In this document: piece by piece, positions 2,720 through 11,258 of the stretch | Numbering within the stretch: the first letter of the stretch is position 1 | Layout: every line of letters starts with the position of its first letter | Assembly: GCA_003577005.1 (NCBI GenBank) | Contig: QEUW01000247.1 | Coordinates: 1-11,900, forward strand | Direction of reading: 5' to 3' | Length of the DNA stretch: 11,900 nt | DNA from: Chloroflexota bacterium | GTDB taxonomy: Bacteria; Chloroflexota; Anaerolineae; Caldilineales; Caldilineaceae | Made by a program: the position numbers and the translations under genes | Notes under the pieces: model-generated | Told to the model about the DNA's origin: nothing | The model's database searches: none | What the model saw: only the letters and a program-made list of their open reading frames with translations

Positions 2720-4414
2720 ATGCGCCGAACGTTGAGTCGTCGTCAATTTCTCCAGGTGACCGGCGGGGCGACCGGTGTTGCCGTCCTGGCGGCGTGCGCC
2801 CCACCTGCGGCCGCCCCCATCGGACCAGCCGTCGAGGAGGCTGAACCAGCGGCAGCCGCCCCCGAAGCTCCAGGCACGGCTGAAGGAGGCATGTTACGTC
2901 CGGGCGGCAATCCGAAGCGAGGAGGGACTCTGCGGGTCGCCGTCGGTGTGACCACATCGAACTATGACATCCAGCAAGGCGGCGCAGTACACGTCTTGTG
3001 CAATTTCTACAACAACCTCGTGCGGCTCAACCCGCTCGACGGTCTGCGGTCGATTGTCCCCGACCTCGCCACCAGTTGGGAGGTGGCAGACGATGGGTTG
3101 GCCTACACCTTTACTCTGCGTGAAGGCGTCACCTTCCACGACGGCGAGCCGTTCAGCGCCGATGACGTGGTCGCCACCTTTGACCGCATCCTCAACCCAC
3201 CCGAAGGAGTTGTCATCCCGCTACGGGCGGACATGGGCATGGTCGATGCTGTGGAAAAGGTCGATGAGATGACCGTTCGCTTTACGTTGAACAGCCCGCG
3301 CGCCTACTTTCTCAGTCTGCTGGCCGGTACGGCGATGGTCATCTTCTCAAAGAAGACGCTCGAAGAGAACAACTATGACCTGCGCGAGGTGCAGGTGGCC
3401 CCCGGCACGGGCGCATTCCGCTTTGTCGAATACTTGACCGCCGAAAAATGGACCATGGAGCGCAACCCCGCTTATTGGGACCAGGAGCTGCCTTACGTCG
3501 ATGTGCTCGAATATCTGCACGTTCCAGCGTGGTCGGACCGGGGCACAGCGGTGCTCACCGACCAGGCGGATATGTCGTGGAATGTCTCCTTCGAGACATG
3601 GAGCGAGGGGGAGAACCGCACCGATATTGTCCAGGTCAACAAGCTGGCGAACTTTGGCGCCTACTGGGTGCTCTTCAACAACCGACGAGAACCGTTCAAT
3701 GACCCGCGCGTCCGCCGCGCCATCCATCTGGCGGTCAGCCGGCAGAATTTGATCGCTGCGTTTGGCAGCCAAGAGCAGATGAATCTCACCCGTTGGATCC
3801 CCTACGGGGACCCGTACGCTACACCGCCGGAAGAGATCGCGCAACTGCCGGGCTACCGGGAGGACAAGAGTGCGGATATTGAGACGGCCAAACAACTGCT
3901 CGCTGATGCCGGCTTCCCCGACGGCATCCAGGGGGTGGAATTGCTGGCCGCCACCGGTCCCCAGGCCGAGCTCATCGCACCGGCGTTTCAGGATATGTTG
4001 CTGCGCAGCTTGAACATCCAGACCGAGATCCGCGCCATCGAGCGTTCGCAACTGGTCGAGGAGGAGCGCAACGGCAATTTCACCCTGGTGGTGGACACTT
4101 ACGGCCACGGCCTGTCGGACATCTCGCCGCGCGCCAATCTTTGGTGGCGGACGGACGGTTCGCAGAACTGGAGCGGCTACAGCAACGCTGACTTTGACGC
4201 CGTGCTCGATCAGATCGATGTGGAAATCGACGAAACCCGTCGCCAGGAACTGATCAACCAGGCGCTCGACATTCTGGATGAGGACCCACCCTGGTATCTG
4301 GTCGGCTATACGTGGCACCTCCCCATGTGGCGCACATCGGTCAAAGGTCTCGTGCTCGACAATCGCGCCTTTGTCGAGTGGGGCCGCGTCGAACCTGTCT
4401 GGCTGGACGTGTAA
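2720..4414 (+). CDS. ABC transporter substrate-binding lipoprotein, family 5 (peptide/nickel type), Tat-exported
   Basis: This 564-residue solute-binding protein belongs to the SBP_bac_5 family (DppA/OppA/NikA type) and would capture a peptide, opine, sugar or metal-chelate ligand outside the membrane for the permeases downstream. The N-terminus has a twin-arginine motif, SRRQFLQ (residues 6-12), a hydrophobic stretch and a lipobox LAAC with Cys26 as the lipid-anchored residue. An Ala/Pro/Glu-rich linker to about residue 60 leads into the mature domain, which opens GGTLRVAVG. Family landmarks include a PDLATSWEVADDGLAYTF block, FHDGEPFSADDVV, and RRAIHLAVSRQNLI in the second lobe. The length is normal for the family. 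The ligand cannot be read from the sequence. The Tat-type leader suggests export of a folded protein. It is the first gene of the operon, with its own promoter and a strong ribosome binding site. Confidence 0.94.
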   Translation: MRRTLSRRQFLQVTGGATGVAVLAACAPPAAAPIGPAVEEAEPAAAAPEAPGTAEGGMLRPGGNPKRGGTLRVAVGVTTSNYDIQQGGAVHVLCNFYNNLVRLNPLDGLRSIVPDLATSWEVADDGLAYTFTLREGVTFHDGEPFSADDVVATFDRILNPPEGVVIPLRADMGMVDAVEKVDEMTVRFTLNSPRAYFLSLLAGTAMVIFSKKTLEENNYDLREVQVAPGTGAFRFVEYLTAEKWTMERNPAYWDQELPYVDVLEYLHVPAWSDRGTAVLTDQADMSWNVSFETWSEGENRTDIVQVNKLANFGAYWVLFNNRREPFNDPRVRRAIHLAVSRQNLIAAFGSQEQMNLTRWIPYGDPYATPPEEIAQLPGYREDKSADIETAKQLLADAGFPDGIQGVELLAATGPQAELIAPAFQDMLLRSLNIQTEIRAIERSQLVEEERNGNFTLVVDTYGHGLSDISPRANLWWRTDGSQNWSGYSNADFDAVLDQIDVEIDETRRQELINQALDILDEDPPWYLVGYTWHLPMWRTSVKGLVLDNRAFVEWGRVEPVWLDV

Positions 4415-4416
4415 AT

Positions 4417-4494
4417 TTTAGATTCTGGATTTTGGATTTTGGATCATCTGGCGCTGAGGCTGGTCAATCCGAAATCTGAAATCCACAATCCCAA
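4417..4494. repeat. Imperfect long inverted repeat (GGATTTT-type) between binding protein and permease
   Basis: Left arm 4417-4444 and right arm 4467-4494 match as reverse complements at 22 of 28 positions by hand count, with a 22-base loop. The left arm contains tandem GGATTTT units. The element fills nearly the whole gap and begins just after the TAA stop. It resembles the low-complexity 'AAATCCAAAATCC' intergenic repeats seen in Chloroflexota and cyanobacteria. It could protect the 3' end of the upstream message or reduce read-through into the permeases. Confidence 0.7.
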
Positions 4495-4500
4495 GTCACC

Positions 4501-5460
4501 ATGTACCGCTATCTTCTGCGCCGGCTGTTTATTGCCGTGCCGACCCTCATCGGCATCACGATCCTGATCTTTCTGGCTATGCGGGTCTTGCCTGGCGACC
4601 CGTTGGCGGTGATCTTTTCCGAGTCATCGGGCAATTTTGTGCTCAGCGATGCGGAGTTGGCCGCGGCGCGCGCCAGCCTGGGATTAGACAAGCCGCTTCA
4701 TGTCCAGTATCTGGAGTGGATTCAACAGGTGATGCGCGGCGACTTCGGTTCGTCGTTCTGGACCAAGGAGCCGATCAGCGCGCTGATCCTGCGGCGCGGG
4801 CCGATCACAGCGCAGATCGCGATCATGGCCGTGATCTTCTCATGGCTGGTGGGCGTGCCTCTCGGGCTGTTGAGCGCGCTCTGGCGCAATTCGGTCTTTG
4901 ATTATGCCTCGCGGGTGGGGATTACCGTCTTTATCGCAGTGCCCAGCTTCTGGCTAGGGCTGCTGCTTGTGCTCTTTACGGTGCTTGTCTTTACCTGGCG
5001 CCCCCCGTTGACCATCGTCCAGTTTTGGGAAGACCCAGGGCGCAACTTGTCGATGACCTCATTACCGGCGCTGGCGTTGGGCCTGGGGCTGGCGGCCGGT
5101 CAGGCGCGCTTTGCCCGCTCGGCTGCCCTCGAGGTACTCTACGAGGACTATGTGCGCACGGCGCGCGCCAAAGGACTGAACGAGAAGCTGGTTATGTGGC
5201 GGCACGTGCTCAAGAATGCGTTGCTGCCGGTGATCACCACATCGGGGCTGGCGCTGGCGGGGCTGTTGGGCGGTGCGGTCTCGGTCGAGCGCGCCTTTGG
5301 CGTGCCCGGTCTGGGTACTCTCCTGGTGCAGGCGCTTAACGACCGCGATTGGATGATGATCCAGAACCTGGTGCTGCTCTATGGGGTCATCTTTGTGCTG
5401 ATCAACCTGATCGTCGATCTGAGTTATGCCTGGATCGACCCGCGTATCCGGTATGAATAA
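4501..5460 (+). CDS. ABC transporter permease, DppB/OppB type
   Basis: This 319-residue inner-membrane permease forms one half of the translocation channel for the binding protein encoded upstream. It begins MYRYLLRRLFIAVPTLIGI, the characteristic opening helix of the DppB family, followed by FLAMRVLPGDP. The cytoplasmic coupling (EAA) loop is DYVRTARAKG from residue 216, continuing WRHVLKNALLPVIT, which contacts the ATPase. About six membrane helices are expected and the length is normal. No clear Shine-Dalgarno sequence precedes the ATG, because the gap is taken up by the inverted repeat. Expression may therefore be lower than for the binding protein, as is usual in such operons. Confidence 0.94.
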   Translation: MYRYLLRRLFIAVPTLIGITILIFLAMRVLPGDPLAVIFSESSGNFVLSDAELAAARASLGLDKPLHVQYLEWIQQVMRGDFGSSFWTKEPISALILRRGPITAQIAIMAVIFSWLVGVPLGLLSALWRNSVFDYASRVGITVFIAVPSFWLGLLLVLFTVLVFTWRPPLTIVQFWEDPGRNLSMTSLPALALGLGLAAGQARFARSAALEVLYEDYVRTARAKGLNEKLVMWRHVLKNALLPVITTSGLALAGLLGGAVSVERAFGVPGLGTLLVQALNDRDWMMIQNLVLLYGVIFVLINLIVDLSYAWIDPRIRYE

Positions 5461-5517
5461 GCCGTTGGTCGGAGCCCCAAACCGGCGTGTTGTACCAAAA
5501 TGTTGTACGCGAATCTA

Positions 5518-5548
5518 GGTGCATCGCACACTGCGTGGGCAACGCACC
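5518..5548 (+). repeat. Small GC-rich region with alternative hairpins upstream of the second permease
   Basis: Several short complementary pairs overlap here: GGTGC/GCACC (5518-5522 with 5544-5548), GTGC/GCAC (5519-5522 with 5526-5529) and TGCGT/ACGCA (5532-5536 with 5542-5546). Just upstream the octamer TGTTGTAC occurs twice (5488-5495 and 5501-5508). The 128-base gap between the permeases is unusually long for this type of operon. No convincing promoter was found in it. Confidence 0.3.
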
Positions 5549-5588
5549 GGGGGAGCTTCGAAAAGCGATTGCCGCGATATTTGTTATC

Positions 5589-6518
5589 ATGCGTGAACTA
5601 AGCCCTGCCCTCTCTCAGAAGACACCGGTTGCGACGGGCGCCGTAGTCGCAACGCCGGGACTGCTCCATCAGCTTGGCAGCATGGTGCGGCGCTTTATCC
5701 GCCAGTCGCCACTCGGAGCGCTGGGGGCGCTTGTCTGGCTGTTGCTGATCGTGATGGCGATCTTTGCCCCGGTGTTGGCCCCGTACGATCCCCAAGAGGC
5801 GGACTACAGTGCGATCCGCCAGGCGCCCAGTGCGGCGCATCTGCTCGGCGCCGACGACATCGGCCGCGATGTGTTGAGCCGTATCATCTTCGGGGCGCGC
5901 ATTACGCTGGTAGTGAGTATCACCTCGGTGCTGATTGGCGACCTCATCGGTTTTTTGTGGGGAGTGCTCAGCGGCTATCTGGGCGGGCGCTTTGACCTGG
6001 TGAGCCAGCGGGTGCTCGATGTGCTCTTCTCGTTTCCGGCTATCATCCTGGCGTTGCTGTTGTTGGTGGCGATTGGCGCCGGGCTGACGACGGTGATCAT
6101 CGCCATTGCCATCACCCGCATCCCCGGTTCGACGCGGGTCATCCGCTCGGTGGTGCTCTCGGTCAAGTCCACCCCTTACATTGAGGCCGCGCGAGCCATC
6201 GGCGTGCGGCCGTGGCGAGTGATGCTCCGGCACATTGCGCCCCAGTGCTTGGCGCCCATCATCGTCGTGGCAACGCTCAACCTGGGCAGCGCCATCTTTG
6301 CCGAAGCGGCTCTGAGCTTTTTGGGGTTGGGTATCCCGCCGCCGGCGCCCAGTTGGGGCAACATGTTGGGGGGCGTCTTGGCGGCGGCGTTCCGGCCCTC
6401 ATGGTGGCTGGTCATCTTTCCCGGGCTGGCGATCACCATCAGCATCATGGCAGCCAACCTGCTGGGCGATGCGCTGCGCGACTTCCTCGACCCCAAGCTG
6501 CGGCAGCGGTTGGAGTAG
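5589..6518 (+). CDS. ABC transporter permease, DppC/OppC type
   Basis: This second channel subunit pairs with the DppB-type permease. The N-terminal pattern is typical of the family: a charged segment MVRRFIRQSPLGALG, a first helix, then FAPVLAPYDPQEADY (OppC N-terminal region) and HLLGADDIGRDVLSRIIFGAR. The EAA loop is YIEAARAIG from residue 197, and the C-terminus contains FLGLGIPPPAPSWGNML, a DppC signature. ATG 5589 gives 309 residues. The frame stays open to a GTG at 5487, but that would add 34 residues unlike the family. ATG 5682 is a shorter alternative. No strong ribosome binding site separates these choices. No ATPase gene follows; the next genes are unrelated. Confidence 0.9.
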   Translation: MRELSPALSQKTPVATGAVVATPGLLHQLGSMVRRFIRQSPLGALGALVWLLLIVMAIFAPVLAPYDPQEADYSAIRQAPSAAHLLGADDIGRDVLSRIIFGARITLVVSITSVLIGDLIGFLWGVLSGYLGGRFDLVSQRVLDVLFSFPAIILALLLLVAIGAGLTTVIIAIAITRIPGSTRVIRSVVLSVKSTPYIEAARAIGVRPWRVMLRHIAPQCLAPIIVVATLNLGSAIFAEAALSFLGLGIPPPAPSWGNMLGGVLAAAFRPSWWLVIFPGLAITISIMAANLLGDALRDFLDPKLRQRLE

Positions 6519-6606: not shown

Positions 6607-6909
6607 TTGCAGACAATGCCGCAGTTAGTGCCAGTCTCTGAACTGCGCTACAACCATCGTGAAGTATTCAGGATGCTCAAAAATGGAGCAATTTTGCTGG
6701 CCCAGCGGAGTAAACCAGCTGCTGTCCTGGTTTCGGTCGAGGAGTGGGACCGCCGGGCAAGACGACTGATCGAGCTAGAGGGGTTATTGGAGGCGAAACA
6801 GGCCCTTGCGCGTATCGACGATGGTCTTGCCACCACTACGACGTTGGACGAACTAAAACAACAATTAGCACAGCGCAAGGCCAGCCATGGCGCCTCTTTG
6901 GGAAATTGA
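6607..6909 (+). CDS. Phd/YefM-family type II antitoxin
   Basis: This 100-residue protein has the YefM/Phd N-terminal DNA-binding fold pattern: LVPVSELRYNHREVF, then ILLAQRSKPAAVLVSVEEWD. A helical C-terminal tail (LIELEGLLEAKQALARIDDG and onward) would wrap around the toxin. The role is to neutralise the partner toxin and repress the shared promoter. GGAGG at 6596-6600 lies 6 bases before a TTG at 6607 and 15 before the in-frame ATG at 6616. Spacing favours the rare TTG start, though the ATG would cost only three residues. Base composition looks more AT-rich than the permeases next door, suggesting that the cassette was acquired. Confidence 0.85.
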   Translation: MQTMPQLVPVSELRYNHREVFRMLKNGAILLAQRSKPAAVLVSVEEWDRRARRLIELEGLLEAKQALARIDDGLATTTTLDELKQQLAQRKASHGASLGN

Positions 6910-7129
6910 GTTTACCGCTGAAGCTAAATTCTATTTCATTGACAGTGGCGACTACACTGGAAATCTCTTGGGTGAAATCGAATTGCTGCGCTATTACCTA
7001 GACGCCCTTCCTCCAGAGGATTGGACGGAAGTGGAGCCAGGGCTGTTTCGATGGGAGATCTTGAATCACCTGGTCTACTATCGAAAGCGTGGAAAGACGA
7101 TCATCATAGCCGTAGTGAAGCCACTGTAA
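6887..7129 (+). CDS. Small RelE/ParE-like toxin partner
   Basis: This 80-residue protein overlaps the antitoxin gene by 23 bases, as expected for translationally coupled toxin-antitoxin partners. Its beta-rich C-terminal part, LFRWEILNHLVYYRKRGKTI followed by IIAVVKPL, resembles the RelE/ParE fold (final strands carrying basic residues, then a hydrophobic strand). The N-terminal part (WEIEFTAEAKFYFI) is also compatible with it. Identification rests mainly on size, order and overlap; direct family motifs are weak. If RelE-like it would cleave mRNA on the ribosome; if ParE-like it would poison gyrase. The sequence does not decide between them. No strong ribosome binding site is visible; AAGG lies 6 bases upstream. 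Confidence 0.68.
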   Translation: MAPLWEIEFTAEAKFYFIDSGDYTGNLLGEIELLRYYLDALPPEDWTEVEPGLFRWEILNHLVYYRKRGKTIIIAVVKPL

Positions 7130-7166: not shown

Positions 7167-7805
7167 ATGAGCTTTGAAGTCTACGACTACCGCACGACCA
7201 ATCGCAACGTCTTGATCACGCCCGAAATCCGGGCGCGGCTCTATCACATGAAGCCCGGCCAGGTGGACGGCCGCCACAGCCACGACCTGGGTCACGAGGT
7301 CTTTCTGATCCTTGAAGGGCAGGCCGAGTTCAACATCAACGGGGTCAAAAAGGTGTTGGGGCCGGGGCAGATGTGCATTGCCCTGGCCGACGAGATCCAC
7401 CAGGTGCGCAATATGCTGCCCGACAAAGAGACGGTCATGTATCTGTCGGTCACGCCGCACATCCATCCCACCCATACCCGGCGCCGGGACGATGACAGCA
7501 AAGCACCGCCGCACTTCAGCCCCAATGCCAACTATCACGCCGAGGATGACCTGAGCGTGCCCGTCGAGACGCTCATCGACCGTTTTGTCGAGGCCACGCA
7601 GATGGTGGCCGAGGCGGCGGCTGCCAGTGCGACGGTGCAGGCCGAAATGGCGGCTAAGCTAAAAGCTGCACGCACGAGCGGCGATACGGATGCGGCGACG
7701 GCTGCCCGGAACACCATGTGGGAGGCAGTCTACCAGCTCCACAAGGCGCTCTACGCCGCCGACCAGATCTGGAACGAGTTTACACCGCGCGCGGTCGAGG
7801 GATGA
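7167..7805 (+). CDS. Cupin-domain protein with helical C-terminal extension
   Basis: This 212-residue protein has a single small cupin barrel in its first ~115 residues. Cupin motif 1 is complete, with likely metal ligands His37, His39 and Glu44 (HSHDLGHE). Motif 2 is GPGQMCIALADEIHQVRN with His78 as the fourth ligand. A metal-binding role is therefore likely, either as an enzyme or as a small-molecule sensor. From about residue 130 the chain is Ala-rich and predicted helical, ending in a segment rich in Trp and aromatic residues (MWEAVYQLHKALYAADQIW). That extension is not part of the standard fold and may serve dimerisation. The stop codon region abuts or overlaps the dehydrogenase start, so the two are probably translated together. 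The exact reaction cannot be named. Confidence 0.85.
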   Translation: MSFEVYDYRTTNRNVLITPEIRARLYHMKPGQVDGRHSHDLGHEVFLILEGQAEFNINGVKKVLGPGQMCIALADEIHQVRNMLPDKETVMYLSVTPHIHPTHTRRRDDDSKAPPHFSPNANYHAEDDLSVPVETLIDRFVEATQMVAEAAAASATVQAEMAAKLKAARTSGDTDAATAARNTMWEAVYQLHKALYAADQIWNEFTPRAVEG

Positions 7806-7810
7806 CGAGT

Positions 7811-8602
7811 ATGAAGCTGGCTGGGAAAGTGGCGCTGGTCACCGGCGCCGGGCGGGGATTGGGCCGCGCCTATGCGCTCCATCTGGCCCAACTGGGCGCC
7901 GATGTGGTCGTCAACGACATCGACCTCCAATCGGCGCGCGAATATGATGAGCAGTTGAACGCCGAAACGGTCATGGCCGAGATCGAAGCCCTAGGCCGCC
8001 GGGCGCTGGGCGTCCAGGCCGATGTGACCAACAAGGATGCGGTCGATGCCATGGTTGAGGAAGCGTTGAGCACCTTTGGCCGGCTCGACATTTTGGTCAA
8101 CAACGCCGGCGGCAATTTGCGCGCCGAAGGCGCCGATGACTCCGCTTCTGGGACGCCACCCGAACGACTTCGATATATCTTGGACATCAACCTCACCAGT
8201 TGCATCCTCTGTTGCCAGGCGGCCAGCCGGCCCATGAAGGGGCAGCGCAGCGGCAAGATCGTCAATGTTGCCTCGCAAGCCGGTTTGTGGAGCGGGCGCA
8301 ACGGTGGAGCCATGCCGTACAAGCTTGCCAAGGCCGGAGTAGCGCACTATACCCGCATCCTCGCCGCCGAGTTGGGACCCTACAATATCAACGTAAACGC
8401 CATTGCGCCCGGTTTTATCGCCTCATCGCGAACCGTACGCTTCTGGGATAAAGCTGGAACCCAGCTTACCGACCAGATCGCCCTCCGTCGTGTAGGAAAT
8501 CCCCAAGAGGCGGCGCGTGTGGTTGAATTCTTGGTGACCGACCTCTCCGATTATGTGACCGGCCAGTGTATCCCCGTTTGTGGAGGCTACGTGGCCTGGT
8601 AA
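7811..8602 (+). CDS. Short-chain dehydrogenase/reductase (SDR family)
   Basis: This 263-residue classical SDR catalyses NAD(P)-dependent oxidation or reduction of an alcohol/ketone. Seen directly: the nucleotide-binding TGAGRGLG (residues 11-18), NNAGG at 97-101, and the catalytic set Ser155, Tyr170 and Lys174 (YKLAK), followed by NVNAIAPGFI. The Ser-Tyr distance is two residues longer than usual. Asp residues at the end of the second strand (VVVNDID) suggest NAD rather than NADP, by family rule. Start: GAGGG at 7797-7801 is 9 bases before ATG 7811. An in-frame ATG at 7802 overlaps the cupin stop as ATGA, adds three residues and is the main alternative. The frame also extends to a GTG at 7718, but that part lies inside the cupin gene. 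FabG-like in general form; the substrate is unknown, possibly linked to the cupin step. Confidence 0.92.
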   Translation: MKLAGKVALVTGAGRGLGRAYALHLAQLGADVVVNDIDLQSAREYDEQLNAETVMAEIEALGRRALGVQADVTNKDAVDAMVEEALSTFGRLDILVNNAGGNLRAEGADDSASGTPPERLRYILDINLTSCILCCQAASRPMKGQRSGKIVNVASQAGLWSGRNGGAMPYKLAKAGVAHYTRILAAELGPYNINVNAIAPGFIASSRTVRFWDKAGTQLTDQIALRRVGNPQEAARVVEFLVTDLSDYVTGQCIPVCGGYVAW

Positions 8603-8664: not shown

Positions 8665-9948
8665 ATGTTGAGCCAGCCTGTCAGCTACGATTGGAGCATC
8701 ATCGAGGACGCGGAGTGGGAGCTAGCCGGGTTTGAAGCGACAGAAGCCGCTGGGCGCAACACGGCTGCCTTGAGCGAGCGGTGGGCGCTGCTCCAGCTTG
8801 CGCGCGGTCTGGTGTTGATCGTGGCAGCGTTGGCGCTGACTGGCGCGACCTTTGCCCCGGAGCCCGCCGAACGCACCTGGGCCTACGAGATGATCTTGCC
8901 CACGCTGCAACTGGAGACCAAAGCCTGGGCCACCCGCGATGAGGATCTGCTTGCTAGCCTGGTCGATGGTTATGTTCAGCCTCGCTTTCAGGACGAGTGG
9001 CGCGTGGGTTGGAACGCCGAGAACGAGGAGTACGCCCCGCGCAACACCACCCTGCTCAATGCTGAAGCGGTAAGCGACTTGATCCAGGTGCAAGTGAAGG
9101 TGGAACAGGTCAATCCGCAGTGGTGGATTTCAAGCCCTCATCGCGAAACGCGCTTTTATCGCCAGGTTGGCGCCGGTTGGGTGCGAACCGTCCCTACAGC
9201 GGAATTCTGGGGTGAGCAGCGGGTGCTAGAGACAAACCATCTCCGGTTTGAGTTCTATGACCACGATTTGCCTGCCGTTCTCGCTATGGTGGACCGGGTC
9301 GAGACCGCGTATGTGCAGGCGCATGCTTGGCTCGGCATCCCCGTACCCAAAGAGGAAGAGAAGATCACCTTTGCCATCCGGCCCGATCTGGTGCGTGGCT
9401 GGAGCGGTTCGGGTAACCGCCTGCATCTGACGACCCCGGCGCTTGCCAGGGTGCCGGCGGAGCTTTCAGATGCCGATTATCTGGCGCATCAGTTGATCAG
9501 CCGCGTGACGACCCGCACGTTCAACCGGCTCTTTACCGACTACGAACGCACCAACACTTACCAGTGGCGCACCATGTTGTGGGCGCTCAACGGCTGGGTG
9601 CGCAGCGAACTGGTTGGCCAACGTTCGCCCTGGCATCAACAGGCGGAGCTCCTCTTCGAGCGCGAGATGGCGAACAAACTCCCCTTGCGTCTCAGCGATA
9701 TCGAAAACCGCTACCCTTCCTGGCGTGTGGACCAGCAGGGGATGATGCTAGATTACGTCAGGGCAGAATCGGTCGTGGTCTACACCATGAATGAACTGGG
9801 CCGCGACCGTCTGCGCGAGTTGGTGATGGCCTTCCACCAACACGGCTCATGGATCGGCCTGGTGACGGATCTGTTTGGTGTAACCGTGGCCGAATTTGAG
9901 GCGGGCTGGAACGACTATCTGACCGAACGGTACCAACGGGCGCCATGA
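8665..9948 (+). CDS. Single-pass membrane protein with degenerate Peptidase_MA-like domain (paralog 1)
   Basis: This 427-residue protein has a short cytoplasmic head with the motif YDWSIIEDAEWE (residues 8-19), one membrane helix at about 42-63, and a large outer region. Residues ~70-210 resemble an NTF2-like fold (AWATRDEDLLASLVDG, then RETRFYRQ and WVRTVPTAEFWG). Residues ~215-425 follow the Peptidase_MA (gluzincin) pattern: HLRFEFYDHDLPAVLAMVDR, a helix where HExxH should be, and a closing block like YGxxxLxxLL...GVTVAEFEAGWNDYL. The zinc site is lost: HQLIS at 275-279 replaces HExxH, and LWALNGW (305-311) lacks the usual Glu of the W-L-N-E-G motif. Catalysis is therefore unlikely; binding or scaffolding is a better guess. 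It sits 62 bases after the dehydrogenase and overlaps its paralog by 4 bases. Family assignment is by pattern and needs a profile search. Confidence 0.75.
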   Translation: MLSQPVSYDWSIIEDAEWELAGFEATEAAGRNTAALSERWALLQLARGLVLIVAALALTGATFAPEPAERTWAYEMILPTLQLETKAWATRDEDLLASLVDGYVQPRFQDEWRVGWNAENEEYAPRNTTLLNAEAVSDLIQVQVKVEQVNPQWWISSPHRETRFYRQVGAGWVRTVPTAEFWGEQRVLETNHLRFEFYDHDLPAVLAMVDRVETAYVQAHAWLGIPVPKEEEKITFAIRPDLVRGWSGSGNRLHLTTPALARVPAELSDADYLAHQLISRVTTRTFNRLFTDYERTNTYQWRTMLWALNGWVRSELVGQRSPWHQQAELLFEREMANKLPLRLSDIENRYPSWRVDQQGMMLDYVRAESVVVYTMNELGRDRLRELVMAFHQHGSWIGLVTDLFGVTVAEFEAGWNDYLTERYQRAP

Positions 9949-11225
9949 CGCATGAGGTCTCTTTTGAATGGCGAGTAGTCGAAGATGCCGACTGGCACAG
10001 TCTGCCTGCCGGCTTCGCTCCCGCAGAACCCGGTCACAGAACGAGCGGTGATCGTTGGCTTCTTGTCGCAGCGCTGCGCGCTGCTGTCATCCTCAGCATT
10101 GCATGGCTCATCCCAGGCGCCACTCATCAGGCCCCTCTAGAGACACTACCTCCTACAACCGGGTTGGCCGTCCTACCGGTGTTGGAACGTGAGGCGGCCG
10201 CATGGCAGAGCAATGATTTGGCACGCATCGAACCACTGCTTGCGCCGGAGGTGCGCTTTGAGTGGCGAAATGAATGGCGTACCCCCTTTACCCTGGCCAC
10301 CGCCGCAGGTACAACGGTCGAAGAGACTGTCATCGCCCAGACGTCACACGGCGACATGGTTCAGGTTACGCTGCTGGTCCACGCCCCCACGCCGTGGACA
10401 TTGAACGCTGTCACCTATCGCGAAACTCGCTATTATCGGCCGGGCGAACAGAGTTGGTTGCGGACCCTGCCCCCACCTAGCGACTGGGGTGAAGAACACA
10501 CGCTCGAAACACCGCACCTGCGCTATCAGTTCCGCACGCGCGACACCGAGGCGGTGTTGGCGATCCTCGACCGGAACGAGTCGGTTTACCTCCTGCTCCA
10601 CGAGTTGCTTGAACTCGACCCATCCCCTGAGCCAGAGAAATTGACCATTCGTATCGACCCCAGGCTCGTGAGCGGCTGGGCCTATTTTGGGCGCATCCAG
10701 CCGCTCACGTCTCCGGCGCTTGCCCGTGTGCCGCACGGGATGAGCGATGCCGACTATCTGGCTCACAGCATTGCCAACCGCGTCACCGGTTTGCTCCTCA
10801 ATCAGCTTACCCTAGACGACAAGCGCGGGGAACAGGCAAAATGGCAACCGCTGGTCTGGGCCATCAACGGCTGGATGCGCACCGATCTCCAGGCGCGGCG
10901 CTCGCCCTGGCACCGCCGCGTCGAAACGATGCTCGACCGGAGGCGCGCCGAACTACTGCCCTTTCATCTGGCCGACATCCTGGATTCGCCTTTGCCCCGC
11001 CCCTATGAACAGCGTACGTTCATGCACCAGTATCTCCTCATCGAATCCCTGGTAGGGTATATCTTGACTGCCTACGGGCGCGACCAGTTGCCCGGTCTGC
11101 TGGCGGTTCTGCGCGACCACGGCTCGTGGCAGGTGGTGCCAGAGATGCTCTTGGGTATCGCGCCAGCCGAGTTCGAGGATGGCTGGAATCGTTTTGTCGC
11201 GACCCACTATCTGGGAATGCCGTAG
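9945..11225 (+). CDS. Single-pass membrane protein with degenerate Peptidase_MA-like domain (paralog 2)
   Basis: This 426-residue tandem paralog starts in an ATGA overlap with the preceding stop, so translation is probably coupled. It has the same layout: cytoplasmic motif FEWRVVEDADWH (residues 7-18), a membrane helix at about 38-57, an NTF2-like region (AWQSNDLARIEPLLAPEVRF, then RETRYYRPGEQSWLRTLP), then the MA-like domain. Shared blocks include LET-HLR, TSPALARVP (TTPALARVP in copy 1), SDADYLAH, RSPWH and DHGSW (QHGSW in copy 1). The HExxH position reads HSIAN (274-278), and WAINGWM lacks the third zinc ligand, so this copy also looks inactive. The two copies have diverged widely outside these blocks, indicating an old duplication with both kept. 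The stop codon lies in the left arm of the hairpin at 11223-11258. Confidence 0.75.
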   Translation: MTHEVSFEWRVVEDADWHSLPAGFAPAEPGHRTSGDRWLLVAALRAAVILSIAWLIPGATHQAPLETLPPTTGLAVLPVLEREAAAWQSNDLARIEPLLAPEVRFEWRNEWRTPFTLATAAGTTVEETVIAQTSHGDMVQVTLLVHAPTPWTLNAVTYRETRYYRPGEQSWLRTLPPPSDWGEEHTLETPHLRYQFRTRDTEAVLAILDRNESVYLLLHELLELDPSPEPEKLTIRIDPRLVSGWAYFGRIQPLTSPALARVPHGMSDADYLAHSIANRVTGLLLNQLTLDDKRGEQAKWQPLVWAINGWMRTDLQARRSPWHRRVETMLDRRRAELLPFHLADILDSPLPRPYEQRTFMHQYLLIESLVGYILTAYGRDQLPGLLAVLRDHGSWQVVPEMLLGIAPAEFEDGWNRFVATHYLGMP

Positions 11226-11258
11226 TGTAGTGATCAGTGGTCAGTGGTCACTACACTA
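11223..11258. terminator. Bidirectional hairpin between convergent genes, containing both stop codons
   Basis: TAGTGTAGTGA (11223-11233) and TCACTACACTA (11248-11258) are perfect 11-base reverse complements. Three more pairs inside, one a G-U wobble, extend the stem to 14 with an 8-base loop. The outer ends are the TAG stop of the plus-strand paralog (11223-11225) and, on the minus strand, the TAG stop of the membrane-protein gene (11256-11258). There is no T-run, so rho-independent termination is not certain. The loop carries a TCAGTGG tandem repeat, a pattern seen in dispersed intergenic repeats. Confidence 0.65.

Follow-up and report, generated by a model that had tools for sequence, protein, structure and literature searches.

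What might two adjacent, membrane-tethered proteins that look like zinc metallopeptidases do when the zinc site itself is missing? The question is raised by two neighbouring genes in an 11,900-nucleotide stretch of DNA from a Chloroflexota bacterium (contig QEUW01000247.1; the window in what follows), which a preliminary description had taken for tandem pseudo-metalloproteases with a binding, sensing or scaffolding role. The two paralogous open reading frames that it reported are indeed present and encode proteins of 427 and 426 amino acids, here copy 1 and copy 2, with 36% identity across 429 aligned positions. Both share one order of parts from the N to the C terminus, namely a short tail, a transmembrane (TM) helix, an NTF2-like domain and a gluzincin-like pseudo-peptidase domain:

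8665..9948, + strand: copy 1 (P0001, 427 aa), from the open reading frame and its translation; AlphaFold pLDDT 83.3, pTM 0.77
8686..8718, + strand: Trp-acidic tail motif of copy 1, YDWSIIEDAEW, residues 8-18, from alignments and the tail control
8776..8853, + strand: TM helix of copy 1, residues 38-63, from the model helix (38-63) and hydropathy
8878..9189, + strand: NTF2-like domain of copy 1, residues 72-175
9214..9945, + strand: gluzincin-like domain of copy 1, residues 184-427, from Foldseek, VIA and hhalign to HExxH-bearing relatives of the class
9499..9513, + strand: HExxH-equivalent of copy 1, SRVTT, residues 279-283, from the hhalign register and residue counts
9580..9582, + strand: equivalent of the third-ligand Glu in copy 1, Trp306, from the family alignment, register inferred
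9945..9948, + strand: four-base ATGA overlap of the copy 1 stop and the copy 2 start, from the sequence
9945..11225, + strand: copy 2 (P0002, 426 aa), from the open reading frame and its translation; AlphaFold pLDDT 80.6, pTM 0.74
9963..9995, + strand: Trp-acidic tail motif of copy 2, FEWRVVEDADW, residues 7-17, from alignments
10047..10118, + strand: TM helix of copy 2, residues 35-58, from the model helix (35-58) and hydropathy
10152..10466, + strand: NTF2-like domain of copy 2, residues 70-174
10491..11222, + strand: gluzincin-like domain of copy 2, residues 183-426
10776..10790, + strand: HExxH-equivalent of copy 2, NRVTG, residues 278-282, from the alignment to copy 1
10857..10859, + strand: equivalent of the third-ligand Glu in copy 2, Trp305, from the family alignment, register inferred

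The membrane tether proposed earlier corresponds to a single TM-like helix near the N terminus of each copy, seen in the AlphaFold models and in hydropathy, and both proteins probably have the N terminus inside and the C terminus outside the cell. The ATGA overlap suggests that the two copies may be translationally coupled. Sequence searches alone were uninformative on the fold: the best match of copy 1 in a PDB sequence search reached only E 0.41, and no NCBIfam family was matched. With the copy 1 model as query, Foldseek returned M1-type aminopeptidases and LTA4H at ranks 1-39, and VIA structure comparison retrieved M30 lugdulysin, M1 and M9 chains, together with NTF2-like chains for the N-terminal domain. 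The predicted structures thus place the C-terminal domain in the gluzincin fold, minus its zinc site, and the domain before it in the NTF2-like/SnoaL-like superfamily. The preliminary description had recognised the gluzincin-like pattern; the NTF2-like domain and the conserved tail were absent from it.

It was also right that neither copy contains HExxH or the Glu of W-L-x-E-G, but it placed the lost motif at HQLIS and HSIAN, one helical turn away from the true site. This site lies four residues downstream, at SRVTT and NRVTG, in an hhalign comparison of 79 family rows (75 kept) with 30 relatives of the same class, these being its 30 best PF13485 loci, with HExxH in 30/30 (prob 96.9, E 1.4e-10, 214 columns). 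The register is supported by site remnants in two relatives, EPLTH in L011 and GALVH followed by VEGL in L019. For the third ligand it was inferred from the family alignment, the hhalign being gapped in that stretch, and it points to Trp306 and Trp305. Since HExxH aligns to SRVTT and NRVTG, the His of SDADYLAH, previously proposed as the first zinc ligand, does not have that role; its column holds 14 His against 33 Gln in the 79 rows, and Gln in three relatives with 79-80% identity (P0003-P0005). The C-terminal GWN block of the earlier reading is genuine, with its FE.GWN aligning by hhalign to the C-terminal end of the domain in the HExxH-bearing relatives.

Across the 79-row alignment the site columns vary freely. 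Among the family rows, 106 have a letter in each of the five site columns, and in these neither HExxH nor the catalytic Glu (position 280) occurs even once, the first His is found in 5 and the second in 4; in the 79 rows, the second His is kept in 4 and a Glu at 306 in 9, with L019 keeping both. Copies 1 and 2 retain none of the four site residues. Nor do other residues appear to form a replacement metal site, the best ectodomain His column being 54% His and the best Cys column 31% in 108 rows, which are mutually distinct although some are fragments (L005, for one, belongs to L001 copy 1) and L043 and L077 overlap. The PF13485 profile that had been suggested as a check matches neither copy over its curated cut-off, and reaches E <= 1 in 13 of the 28 members of the window proteins' alignment (best 7.1e-5). 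Hence, the two proteins cannot be ordinary gluzincin peptidases and are very probably non-catalytic altogether.

Is this loss peculiar to the pair? Relatives of copy 1 at E <= 0.01 comprise 27 proteins, including the window's own and two under 280 aa, and P0003-P0005, of 426-427 aa, are encoded on other contigs. Matches at E <= 1e-3 occur in 33 of the 46 genomes of the GTDB family that holds the genome of a related locus, L001 (a Caldilineaceae MAG, NCBI phylum Chloroflexota), and at least 60 of 249 sampled genomes of the class match at E <= 1e-8. Some genomes have about eight copies, with genes called by a simple longest-ORF script and some genomes being fragmented. A first scan of genome contigs and a search of viral contigs recovered no relative. 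Members are named solely “hypothetical protein” where the source gives a name, and no paper on the family was listed by the literature searches; this is a large Chloroflexota family without an established name.

HExxH is absent from all 73 family ORFs of the fetched loci, a count including the two window ORFs and some duplicates, and the two HExxH strings among the family ORFs of the class sample are both outside the site. The idea that orthologs elsewhere might keep the motif has thus found no example. Of 150 genomes sampled from the class, 92 have a PF13485 match above the cut-off of the model, but none of the 46 genomes of the order (identical to the 46 of the GTDB family) does, one weak match there having E 4e-6. 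Because none of the 106 rows has HExxH at the site, its loss would most simply precede the radiation of the family; judged from these sequences, the family ancestor most likely lacked the zinc site already, and the loss would not stem from duplication of the window pair. Tandem copies likewise recur, with four in L160 (one cut by the contig end), three in L167 and two each in L161, L162, L166 and L206. The special coupling of zinc loss with two copies, on which the preliminary description had built, therefore gives way to family-wide loss and recurrent arrays.

Some family proteins contain two units, as judged by eye, and by the same means several further architectures were noted. A 742-aa protein (L144, 337-2562) apparently fuses two units of NTF2-like and dead gluzincin domains. 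A long form of about 840 aa (L051, L053-L059, L061-L063, L163 and L164) combines the family tail, TM and first domains with a beta-propeller-like C-terminal stretch, and occurs mostly as one match per genome among G007-G023, with none in G011 and G021. In L052 (379-2304), the tail and first domains are apparently fused to a solute-binding-protein-like C-terminal part.

The most conserved residue of the family is the tail Trp, above anything in the gluzincin-like domain. Trp10 is W in 71/71 rows with a letter in the 79-row alignment (8 gaps) and in 99/99 class-wide (9 of 108 gapped), and is usually followed by acidic residues and often by a second Trp; the rows were selected with a tail-containing profile, which favours tail conservation and inflates the tail counts somewhat. 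Under equal criteria, 44 of 47 family genes have a Trp followed by at least three acidic residues before an early TM, compared with 1 of 162 others from the same DNA, with 23 of 70 family genes omitted for having no TM called in range. With looser TM limits for the family, and so with criteria differing from those of the control, the pattern was present in 84 of 97, with 11 of 108 omitted. When seven genomes were searched with a tail profile, scoring no more than 150 candidates in each, the matches listed up to E 2e-4 were all family members, and no other protein class was among those listed. Weaker non-family matches, up to E about 1, start at profile position 14 or later, so mainly the TM part is matched. 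Arg-rich stretches, seen by eye, precede the TM in many members and suggest that the tail is cytosolic; it could alternatively serve in insertion, sorting or turnover.

Upstream of the pair lies a set of genes whose order is shared with L001, in that an importer, a cupin, an SDR, copy 1 and copy 2 follow one another at both loci:

2720..6518, + strand: family-5 solute-binding protein and two permeases of an ABC importer, from Pfam and synteny
7167-7805, + strand: cupin gene, from the open reading frame and Pfam
about 7811-8602, + strand: SDR gene, from the open reading frame, named by eye from the sequence

The SDR stop is 62 bp from the copy 1 start. Between the window and L001, identity is 55% for copy 1 and 34% for copy 2, the latter over 251 aligned residues of a 3' piece of L001 copy 2 that follows a masked gap. 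The two second copies fall in different subclades, P0002 with P0011/P0013 (fork 89/92) and L001 copy 2 with P0012/P0015 (fork 99/92), in a tree that was midpoint-rooted for drawing and has weak support around P0002. Moreover, in comparisons with relatives, the identity of copy 2 does not exceed 37%. By sequence, then, copy 2 is not clearly an ortholog of L001 copy 2, and the second slot of the pair is either fast-evolving or has been replaced. Such doubtful orthology between syntenic loci speaks against an old fixed heterodimer.

Between the permease and the cupin, at 6607-7129, the window has a toxin-antitoxin-like pair: a Phd/YefM-type antitoxin (Pfam E 1.3e-10) and, after it, an ORF with a weak ParE-like match (E 0.16). 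This pair looks like an insertion because the equivalent gap of L001 (3903-4070) lacks it. The window begins with an active-looking M4 peptidase of the thermolysin type, open at its 5' end (1-2484), which carries HEWAH as well as DUF4215 and a P-proprotein domain (Pfam). Downstream, an inverted-repeat-like stretch noted by eye (11224-11258) lies between copy 2 and a convergent membrane ORF (11675-11256) and is possibly a terminator shared by both.

The neighbourhoods of the wider family point to regulators of the STAND class. They are frequent neighbours in the other genomes with several family copies. Of 27 family genes whose context is complete, 12 have a STAND gene within three genes, compared with 6 of 178 controls (Fisher 2.5e-8); the control regions come from two genomes, the STAND seeds were taken from the neighbourhoods of family genes, and the loci, where related, lack independence. 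A divergent STAND gene is found immediately upstream of 10/46 family genes against 1/276 controls (1.4e-8; two family genes without upstream DNA were skipped), and of 6/27 against 1/178 in the 27-gene set; downstream neighbours show no such link (1/44 against 1/280). Pfam NB-ARC occurs within 4 kb of 9 of 40 family genes where 1.42 are expected (Poisson 1.8e-5), with the matches of one gene merged and a weak family match, G026:C649 (E 7.2e-4), omitted. The seven STAND proteins scanned have SARP/BTAD, HTH_31/HTH_3 or LuxR heads with NB-ARC/AAA and TPR.

Such regulators are recurrent neighbours of a sister clade (11 of 18 genes, with L212 and L213 assigned to it by eye and not by the tree), often head to head, as opposed to 1 of 9 genes in the clade of the window pair, which is itself left out of the count. 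The pair has no adjacent STAND gene, and none was seen among the window's ORFs (ORF list, Pfam); given the difference between the clades, the STAND link alone does not cover it. Any functional link between the family and STAND regulators is putative. Among 10 further divergent upstream neighbours, Pfam found no STAND protein but LysM (2), an aldo/keto reductase and an MR_MLE, with no Pfam family for six, some of which are perhaps mis-called frames. Of the 27 family genes, 9 have ABC importer parts within three genes, compared with 29 of 178 controls, a weak enrichment (Fisher 0.037, uncorrected). A biotin-ligase-like gene, recognised by eye, adjoins class-level relatives in four genomes (L160, L161, L176 and L179), and MiaB-like genes are near family members in L162 and L167. 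A reading as anti-sigma factors was dropped, no sigma-factor gene having been recognised by eye among the neighbours inspected.

The computations show the architecture, the predicted fold, absence of the site, the conserved tail, recurrent tandem copies and the sister-clade STAND neighbourhoods, whereas we infer the topology, ligand binding, docking of the tail and pairing of the two copies. Our best guess, tentatively held, is that the two proteins have no catalytic role but bind or sense something outside the cytoplasm and use the Trp-acidic tail for signalling or docking, a reading that preserves the binding or sensing role first suggested. Outside the cytoplasm, the module of NTF2-like and dead-peptidase domains would bind a ligand, be it a peptide, some other solute or a partner protein. 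The tail would bind a partner in the cytosol, and the state of the module would either be relayed to this partner or serve to hold it; the two copies might work as a coupled pair, possibly in a heterodimer. It is a more doubtful step to see here a new bacterial transmembrane signalling module. In such a module, ectodomains of the dead gluzincin type, frequently in tandem, would detect extracytoplasmic ligands and, through the invariant Trp-acidic tail, control or anchor regulators in the cytosol, these being STAND proteins in one clade and another partner for the window pair. If the tail does read out to STAND regulators, these ATPases would gain a membrane input and a family of hypothetical proteins a role.

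Other readings were weighed against that of binders or sensors. The proteins could be structural or scaffold components of the cell envelope, the ectodomain binding wall or envelope material or assembling proteins and the tail anchoring to a cytosolic structure with no signalling. The LysM genes that adjoin family members in L074 and L095 (Pfam), with a similar gene in L168 (BLAST cluster), are in keeping with this, as are the near absence of the regulator link in the window's clade and the pseudopeptidases acting in binding or complex assembly that are described in excerpts of a review (PMC11266112). It predicts neither the STAND genes that recur beside sister-clade members nor the high copy number in diverse contexts, and we regard it as rather unlikely. 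We give less credence to accessory subunits of the neighbouring ABC importer and catabolic cluster, which would capture substrate or recruit the transporter with no part in gene control: the gene order kept between the window and L001 and the importer parts near other family genes favour them, whereas that enrichment is weak, family contexts are diverse, the tail is conserved even with no importer nearby and, in the window, the toxin-antitoxin-like pair separates importer and cupin.

Two further explanations fare much worse. That the proteins are active hydrolases in which a non-canonical metal site has been rebuilt could be imagined from the scattered second His and Glu at 306, above all in L019 with both; the missing catalytic Glu in all 106 rows, the modest His and Cys columns and the lack of all four site residues in the window copies make this highly improbable. 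Fractionally less probable still is a decaying remnant heading for loss. The vanished site residues and the low identity of copy 2 to its relatives would fit decay, but both frames are open at full length, the homologues P0003-P0005 remain at 79-80% identity and 426-427 aa, structural residues are invariant, and synteny with L001 is conserved.

The nearest active counterparts of the non-catalytic binders or sensors that we favour are the HExxH-bearing Peptidase_MA_2 proteins (PF13485) of the same GTDB class, with which hhalign aligns the gluzincin-like domain, the C-terminal helices and the YG...L...FE.GW block; unlike these, the window proteins lack HExxH, the Glu and a PF13485 match, and have an additional NTF2-like domain and conserved tail. 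M30 lugdulysin (7bb8), titled a zinc metallopeptidase, is 7-9% identical. The M1-family pseudo-peptidases TAF2 and Tma108 differ from the window pair in being eukaryotic and are not known to be membrane-anchored or paired. According to excerpts of the review, Tma108 lacks just one of its active-site residues and has uncertain activity (PMC11266112). The same excerpts describe Goe, a Drosophila M13 pseudo-peptidase (PMC11266112) that resembles the window pair, as predicted, in being a type II membrane protein whose extracellular metallopeptidase domain is dead; it is eukaryotic, belongs to a different family and has a dispensable cytosolic part, in contrast to the window family, where the tail Trp is the most conserved residue. 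The metallo-pseudopeptidases covered in those excerpts are almost all eukaryotic (PMC11266112), and against this background, the proteins described here represent a whole bacterial family that keeps the predicted fold without the zinc site.
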